From positions 1-52,382 of the forward strand of contig JAQRMR010000002.1 in assembly GCA_028599115.1 (NCBI GenBank): DNA of 52,382 nucleotides, read 5' to 3'. The position numbers were made by a program, and so were the translations under genes. Positions 1 to 48,690 of this stretch are shown one piece after another; position 1 is the first letter of the stretch; the number at the start of each line of letters is the position of its first letter. This DNA is from Methyloprofundus sp. (lineage in GTDB: Bacteria; Pseudomonadota; Gammaproteobacteria; Methylococcales; Methylomonadaceae). The notes beneath the pieces were generated by a model. The model had not been told where the DNA came from and searched no databases. It saw only the letters and a program-made list of their open reading frames with translations.

Positions 1-47
1 GCGATATAAAAGATAGCTTAAATAACAGAAGTTCTTAGCTTAATATT

Positions 48-170
48 GTAACTTCTCATTATCAACGGGTACTGGAACGCAGGTCTTTAGCCTGCCGCTG
101 AATCAATGCAGGCTAAAGACCAGCGTTCCATTTATTCATGAGTTCGATCCTGTGGATAATGAGAAGTTAC
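48..170. mobile_element. MITE-like element, long copy (123 bp)
   Basis: The element is bounded by perfect 16-bp inverted repeats (GTAACTTCTCATTATC at 48-63 and its complement at 155-170). It is flanked by a perfect 8-bp direct repeat TTAATATT (40-47 and 171-178), which reads as a target-site duplication. Outside positions 84-140 it matches the copy at 48582-48647 at 65 of 66 positions. It has no coding capacity, so it must be moved in trans. The GTAA tips and the 8-bp duplication fit what is known of IS66-family elements; that family link is inference. Positions 1-39 hold nothing I recognise, and 179-305 is the AT-rich leader of the next gene. Confidence 0.85.
73..130. repeat. 23-bp-arm palindrome nested in the MITE
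   Basis: Arms at 73-95 and 108-130 are complementary at 22 of 23 positions and are separated by a 12-base loop. Most of this palindrome lies in the 57-bp stretch (84-140) that the short MITE copy at 48582 lacks. It is either a second palindromic repeat inserted into the MITE or a part deleted from the short copy. Confidence 0.75.
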
Positions 171-305
171 TTAATATTTTTAGCAGTGATTGTTTTTAAA
201 GGATTTTTAATAATTACTTAAGCTTGTCATATTGTTTTCATAATTGCGCGTTAGTATGCATTTAGAGCTTTAGCTCATTTAAATTTTTAATATTGGAGAA
301 ACAAA

Positions 306-48516: not shown

Positions 48517-48581
48517 AAAAAATCCTAATTGATAATTGATAACGAAGGTATTTACAATTCATAAGCTTACAGAGTATTAGT

Positions 48582-48647
48582 GTAACTTCTCATTATCAAC
48601 GGGCACTGGAACGCAGGAGTTCGATCCTGTGGATAATGAGAAGTTAC
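48582..48647. mobile_element. MITE-like element, short copy (66 bp)
   Basis: The same 16-bp terminal inverted repeats as at 48-170 lie at 48582-48597 and 48632-48647. A perfect 8-bp direct repeat GTATTAGT flanks it (48574-48581 and 48648-48655). It matches the long copy at 65 of 66 positions and lacks only the 57-bp inner palindrome region. It lies in the gap between argF and the SH3 gene. Confidence 0.85.
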
Positions 48648-48690
48648 GTATTAGTAAGCGTAAGTGAATTAATGGAACCAGTTTACGAAG

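Follow-up and report, generated by a model that had tools for sequence, protein, structure and literature searches.

The 52,382-nucleotide stretch of Methyloprofundus sp. DNA analysed here (the window) contains two short non-coding repeats of the same family, a copy of 123 bp close to its left edge and one of 66 bp between two genes near its right edge (Table 1). The source bacterium is a relative of the methane-eating symbionts of deep-sea mussels, and its draft assembly comprises 2,288,996 bp (2.29 Mb) in 121 contigs, of which the window is contig 34. In the following, C numbers denote contigs of this assembly (also referred to as G000), G numbers genomes of the family, and L numbers individual loci. 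Both repeats start with GTAACTTCTCATTATC and finish with its reverse complement, the inverted ends being perfect over 16 bp and 91% complementary when extended to 22 bp. Short, lacking a transposase gene, and bounded by terminal inverted repeats, they have the build of MITEs. The earlier note on this DNA had described two elements with perfect 16-bp inverted ends, each enclosed by its own perfect 8-bp flanks and agreeing with the other at 65 of 66 shared positions, and all of this was borne out. The 123-bp copy was predicted to fold at -66.2 kcal/mol (z -11), with a z of -7.9 for its core palindrome alone. A search of positions 1-400 against Rfam returned three matches, none of which reached the gathering score.

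Table 1. Positions of the two MITE copies in the window, their parts, and their flanking duplications.
Feature	Position	Strand	Remarks
Left copy of 8-bp target duplication TTAATATT	40..47		Flank of the 48-170 element
123-bp MITE copy	48..170	+	Two differences from the family consensus
Left end of the 123-bp copy	48..69	+	Against the G155 IS66-family ends: first 16 bp identical, 20/22 overall
Core palindrome	73..130		Arms 73-95 and 108-130 (23 nt, 96% complementary), 12-nt loop
Right end of the 123-bp copy	149..170	-	22/22 identical to both G155 IS66-family ends
Right copy of 8-bp target duplication TTAATATT	171..178		Flank of the 48-170 element
Left copy of 8-bp target duplication GTATTAGT	48574..48581		Flank of the 66-bp form
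66-bp deletion form of the MITE	48582..48647	+	Between argF and the gene for a TIGR04211 SH3-domain protein
Deletion junction	48614..48617	+	One CAGG, against two at a distance of 57 bp in the matching 123-bp copies
Right copy of 8-bp target duplication GTATTAGT	48648..48655		Flank of the 66-bp form

When the genome was searched with the 16-bp end, allowing up to two mismatches, 82 sites were recovered as against a single site for the reversed control. The 123-bp query found at least 40 places of the size of the element, with 40 out of 57 candidates scored, and the 66-bp query 41 places, which were reduced to 39 loci upon removal of overlaps: C106b repeats, on a different contig, the left portion of the window's first copy (C34a), and C116a and C93 are compatible with a single locus split between two contigs. 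Further to these 39 loci, a copy running into N is present at C65:13030 and a fragment on C101. The MITE family is hence represented by about 40 loci in its own genome, this being a lower bound. An exact 22-mer had no match in a wider contig collection, which may not include the records of the organism itself or of very close kin. The 31 full-length copies show a mean pairwise difference of 5.3 of 123 positions, with one identical pair and two copies equal to the consensus (derived from 31 of the 32 rows of 123 bp, C121a being excluded), and hence nothing to suggest a burst in the very recent past. A 158-bp hybrid copy was also encountered (L066, C16:18649-18806), the left part of which carries a different palindrome, GGAACGAAGGCTTTAGCCTTC, and which has no target duplication.

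Target duplications were counted at 36 of the 41 places, namely those with both flanks (C65, C116a, C93, C83, and C106b were left out). The direct repeats are 8/8 in 24 of them, 9/9 in one (C73a), and 7/8 in seven, giving perfect repeats at 25 places and 7/8 or better at 32; the four places without matching flanks (C42, C78, C121a, and C16) are all truncated or rearranged. In a mis-paired control, in which the left and right flanks of different copies were combined, 7/8 was attained by 2 of 1260 pairs and 8/8 by none. Together with the excess of end sites over the reversed control, this result excludes chance. At its positions 4-6, the duplicated sequence is predominantly A or T (in 23, 27, and 27 of 31 duplications).

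At C67 and C85, the MITE lies inside an unrelated dispersed repeat, where it is flanked by GTTATTCC-like duplications (7/8 each), and the same repeat is found uninterrupted on C8 and C90 with a single GTTATTCC. These empty sites are paralogous copies of a repeat in the same genome rather than the same locus in a sister strain, and the comparison of C67 and C85 with C8 and C90 reads as an insertion event seen through paralogous sites. The dispersed repeat itself (AAGTTCGCTCGTTATTCCTTCTCCTGCTGGAGAAGG and its neighbours, L140-L143, at C8:11969, C67:11666, C85:10723, and C90:29310) is alignable over about 60-70 bp and was a MITE target in two of its copies. The earlier note had claimed the transposition of a very small non-coding element and had proposed that copies be counted throughout the genome, their 8-bp flanks read, and empty sites compared in related strains. 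The claim has held up on the copies, the duplications, and the empty sites alike, although the last of these came from repeat copies of the same genome and not from related strains.

The position of the repeats relative to genes was assessed on a model restricted to ORFs of at least 80 aa. Thirty-seven of 40 rows (39 loci) lie between modelled ORFs, where only 13% of random points in the same stretches fall (87% being inside ORFs). The remaining three touch the last codons of ORFs that stay open, with 336, 489, and 618 aa compared with 336, 489, and 620 aa in the modelled empty sites, and no row interrupts the body of a modelled ORF. Both neighbouring genes could be read for 29 rows, of which 21 are tandem, 6 convergent, and 2 divergent. 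Such a preference for intergenic DNA, in combination with the strong fold of the 123-bp copy, could be taken to mean that the repeats are retained as regulatory or mRNA-end hairpins and are not selfish mobile DNA. This is nonetheless improbable: insertion is shown by the target duplications and the related empty sites, every gene order is represented, and the avoidance of genes is equally to be expected from selection against gene damage. Moreover, a scan of positions 1-320 for promoters and terminators revealed no terminator and only two promoter-like sites, both of them outside the element.

The origin of the ends was sought among 237 genomes of the family, several of which contain near-exact matches of 21-25 bp to the MITE ends. 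The donor-type protein, searched for in the same genomes, was matched in 22 of them; close relatives were present in G155 and G140, where the corresponding elements measure 1644-1648 bp from end to end. The G155 copy L132 (1644 bp, with an 8/8 duplication) encodes a protein of 525 aa and has no second ORF of 150 aa or more inside; the G140 element with an ORF listed encodes 526 aa. Both proteins pass PF03050 (69.9 bits for G155 and 68.7 bits for G140, the cut-off being 23.1), and their scores of 136.8 and 132.8 bits against the NCBIfam model NF033517 (IS66) are below its cut-off of 180. Duplications of 8/8 flank one of the two end-to-end G155 copies and nine of the 12 G140 copies read, the flanks being non-matching in the other G155 copy and in three G140 copies. 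By eye, the usual G140 ends differ from the MITE right end at 1-2 of 22 positions, and one G140 end is mostly GAAACTT. A single-ORF IS66-type DDE transposase, GTAA ends, and an 8-bp duplication were thus all found in the donor elements, as they are in the ISBst12 group of the IS66 family.

The MITE has its ends in common with this autonomous element (22/22 and 20/22 against G155), and when the G155 element was compared as DNA with the window's own genome, the matches within MITEs were confined to these ends. Similarity to the parent at the ends alone is the mark of a Type II MITE as defined in the review PMC10969869. A simple internal deletion of the IS was rejected as the origin of the MITE, there being no interior in common. 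G069, G071, and G095 contain IS66-family elements that are more distant and whose ends are similar in part, likewise with 8/8 duplications. In G196 (L094, 632-3313), two ends 2682 bp apart, each equal to the 22-bp right end of the MITE, enclose an IS66-family gene that an IS4-type insertion has broken.

Nothing in the window's own genome matched the donor protein, and the DNA of the G155 element matched only the MITE ends and a few stretches of 18-28 bp (40 of 59 candidates scored). A resident parent, which is usual for MITEs though not required, was consequently not seen in this draft of 121 contigs. The only PF03050 match is an IS66 gene on C56, part of a single-ORF IS66-family element (L072, 8227-9929) with an open frame of 435 aa and ends, GTAACTACTCAGCGTAA, near the published ISDge4 ends. 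Its protein is 25% identical to the donor protein over 227 aa, and as a direct parent it was rejected on account of ends and protein being too different. It might still be proposed that this resident element, with its related but different ends, now moves the MITE, given that its reading frame is open, that no other PF03050 match was found in the genome, and that its end agrees with the MITE at 10 of the first 11 positions. The agreement nevertheless drops to 13/20 overall, whereas the G155 ends reach 20-22 of 22, matching 8-bp flanks are lacking around the C56 copy itself, and the divergence among the MITE copies, with one identical pair in 31, also speaks against current activity of this sort, which we regard as unlikely. 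The genomes of endosymbiotic Methyloprofundus are described as IS-rich with mostly disrupted transposases (PMC8788690), a state that would fit the loss of a donor.

Taken together, the shared ends, the 8-bp duplications, some 40 dispersed copies, the related empty sites, and the IS66-family elements of sister genomes argue, at the level of sequence, that the repeats almost certainly form a MITE family which is non-autonomous and owes its mobility to the action in trans of an IS66-family transposase of the single-ORF (ISBst12-like) type. The IS66-type mobilisation surmised in the earlier note is thereby well supported, with the qualification that the full IS66 element with the same ends, which it had suggested looking for, was located in congeners and not in the genome itself. 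A single-ORF transposase of this type would have cut and joined the MITE ends, and its gene would either have been present formerly in the lineage and since lost or be hidden in an assembly gap.

The MITE family is new, but its general kind is already known. ISDge4, a member of the ISBst12 group of the IS66 family that was seen to transpose, has a single ORF between the ends GTGACTACTCAGCA and GTAACTGCTCAGCA and is accompanied by an 8-bp repeat (PMC12898284). As far as that account goes, the donor is similar in its single transposase ORF, in one end of the form GTAACTnCTCA, and in the 8-bp duplication, whereas its transposase is longer (about 525 aa as opposed to 449 aa), the window element has no ORF, and the ends diverge after position 11. 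MITEAba12 (111-114 bp), as described together with ISAba12, is likewise non-coding, has ends in common with a full IS, and is flanked by target duplications, but these are of 9 bp instead of 8 bp and its parent is co-resident, whereas that of the window MITE was not found in the assembly (PMC6382973). MITECca01 of a Cardinium symbiont is also distributed genome-wide and mostly in intergenic positions; unlike the window MITE, it is reported with 169 copies and derives from a still-resident IS982-family element (PMC9769881). MITEs derived from IS66 seem to be little described, in that none was found as the subject of a paper in the open-licence literature by title or start of abstract, and IS66 is absent from the main text of a 2024 review of prokaryotic MITEs (PMC10969869).

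The same IS66 ends were also found around other cores. Eleven short end-pairs were collected from five congeners (ten close pairs among the matches listed, plus L095), and seven of them enclose a palindrome of the CGTCATTCC...GGAATGACG type or near it (L205-L208, L210, L212, and L095). The other cores consist of a GGGCGGC hairpin (L214) and AT-rich DNA without a strong fold (L211 and L213), with no core at all in L209; z is -3.3 or lower in six of the ten pairs that have a core. The flanks of the 11 pairs match at 8/8 in three, 7/8 in three, 6/8 in three, and 4/8 in two. In four congeners, the window's IS66 ends surround a different, CGTC-like palindrome, which by inspection resembles in form the CGTC-tagged repetitive extragenic palindromes (REPs), a class characterised by a CGTC tag, a hairpin, a CCA-like tail, and many free copies. 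The published CGTC REPs are presented as having no known transposase and few, fortuitous associations with transposase genes (PMC3733652). The core of the window MITE is another palindrome, neither a CGTC nor a GTAG tag being visible by eye in its arms (TGGAACGCAGG...). With the L212 core as the query, G141, G143, G144, and G146 each yielded at least 35-52 matches over both strands, these being lower bounds as 40 of 55, 92, and 55 candidates were scored in three of the four genomes. At the 40 distinct places shown for G146, IS66-type ends are present at two (on both sides in each case) and absent at 38, with 0/40 in a wrong-orientation control. The CGTC-like palindrome of G146 therefore lacks IS66 ends at most of its places and is enclosed by them on occasion.

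In its own genome, the core palindrome of the window MITE was seen only within MITE copies or fragments; a search with a core 20-mer at up to three mismatches, outside the places already listed, gave only C65:13055 (the MITE copy that continues into N) and C101:4068, apparently a fragment of the MITE. Related palindromes are present in 10 of 17 other congeners (E 0.001), and 22 of their contexts were read (13 in G153, five in G156, two in G140, and one each in G155 and G152) by a local-alignment test of the flanks with 300 shuffles per flank. An IS66-type end lies on at least one side in eight of the 13 G153 contexts (p 0.01 or less, uncorrected), on both sides in one of these (L189), and on neither in five. 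None of the five G156 contexts has a clear IS66 end, L199 having one side at p 0.05. In G156, the loci L195 and L196 share another inverted repeat, TTAAGACGGGACAG / TTAAGAAGGGACAG, which was equalled in 0/300 shuffles, and L198 and L199 show weaker traces of this repeat or of another (p 0.07 and 0.04). At L204 of G152, the inverted repeat is CAGGAACGTGCACGACACAC, 20 bp long and with a single mismatch, and no significant inverted repeat was detected around the G155 context or the two G140 contexts. L195, L196, and L204 apparently represent other MITE families with ends unrelated to IS66. Within the genus, the window-type palindrome is thus found between at least three kinds of inverted ends. 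The genome also has seven PF01797 matches, and the five Y1 (IS200/RAYT-type) loci read (L180-L184, on C47, C115, and C121) include three within 11 kb on C47; these transposases were rejected as movers of the core, as no core-like 23-mer (up to seven mismatches) was present in the five of seven loci read.

A possible parallel to the two forms in the window is offered by the Correia elements of Neisseria, small MITEs that occur both at a longer size and in an internally deleted version. The 123-bp copies at C61, C121b, and C71b, less 57 bp, equal the 66-bp copy at 66/66 positions, so although the agreement between the window's two copies stands, they are not simple sisters. The break point of the 57 bp floats across the four letters CAGG, which are found on both sides. 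The simple reading is that the 66-bp copy would have arisen by a deletion between the two short CAGG repeats that bracket the hairpin, presumably through replication slippage, with removal of the hairpin. The deletion could have preceded or followed insertion at the present site; given its identity to three longer copies minus 57 bp, the 66-bp copy need not have jumped as a 66-mer and may have arisen in place. Least probable of all the alternatives, and in our judgement very unlikely, is an ancestral 66-bp MITE into which the palindrome was later inserted with duplication of CAGG: CAGG does bound the 57-bp difference on both sides in the matching copies, and related palindromes do occur outside IS66 ends in congeners, but the outer left arm TGGAACGCAGG is already present in the 66-bp form, so that the complementarity of an inserted right arm would be a coincidence, the form was seen once in the genome against 32 rows of 123 bp, and it shares with its three existing 123-bp counterparts even the minority base C at position 23.

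Under the preferred reading of a MITE mobilised in trans, a dispersed palindrome would have become enclosed by a pair of IS66 ends and would subsequently have spread as a passenger. The small set of contexts described above lends support to an exchange in which palindromes pass between inverted ends of the IS66 type and others. IS66-type ends enclose unrelated palindromes (the TGGAACGCAGG type, CGTC-like dimers, and the GGGCGGC hairpin), and the TGGAACGCAGG type is found elsewhere inside other inverted ends. On these grounds, we tentatively raise the possibility that, in this methanotroph genus, the ends of transposons and palindromic repeats behave as modules that can be exchanged, with IS66-type ends as a packaging cassette and one possible route for the spread of CGTC-type REPs. 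QMITE2 of Coxiella burnetii, a MITE containing a repetitive extragenic palindrome of the GTAG type, is an earlier example of a REP within a MITE (PMC10969869), so that the novelty would lie in the exchange of modules and not in the nesting; in the review's account of QMITE2, no mention was found of one set of ends holding different palindromes (PMC10969869). That a single set of ends can surround different palindromes is relevant to a question raised in PMC3733652, namely how CGTC REPs, which have no dedicated transposase by that account, come to move, though with two of 40 places in G146 hitchhiking could account for only a minority of the CGTC-like repeats. If the proposal is true, IS66-type ends would let repeats that have no transposase of their own move.
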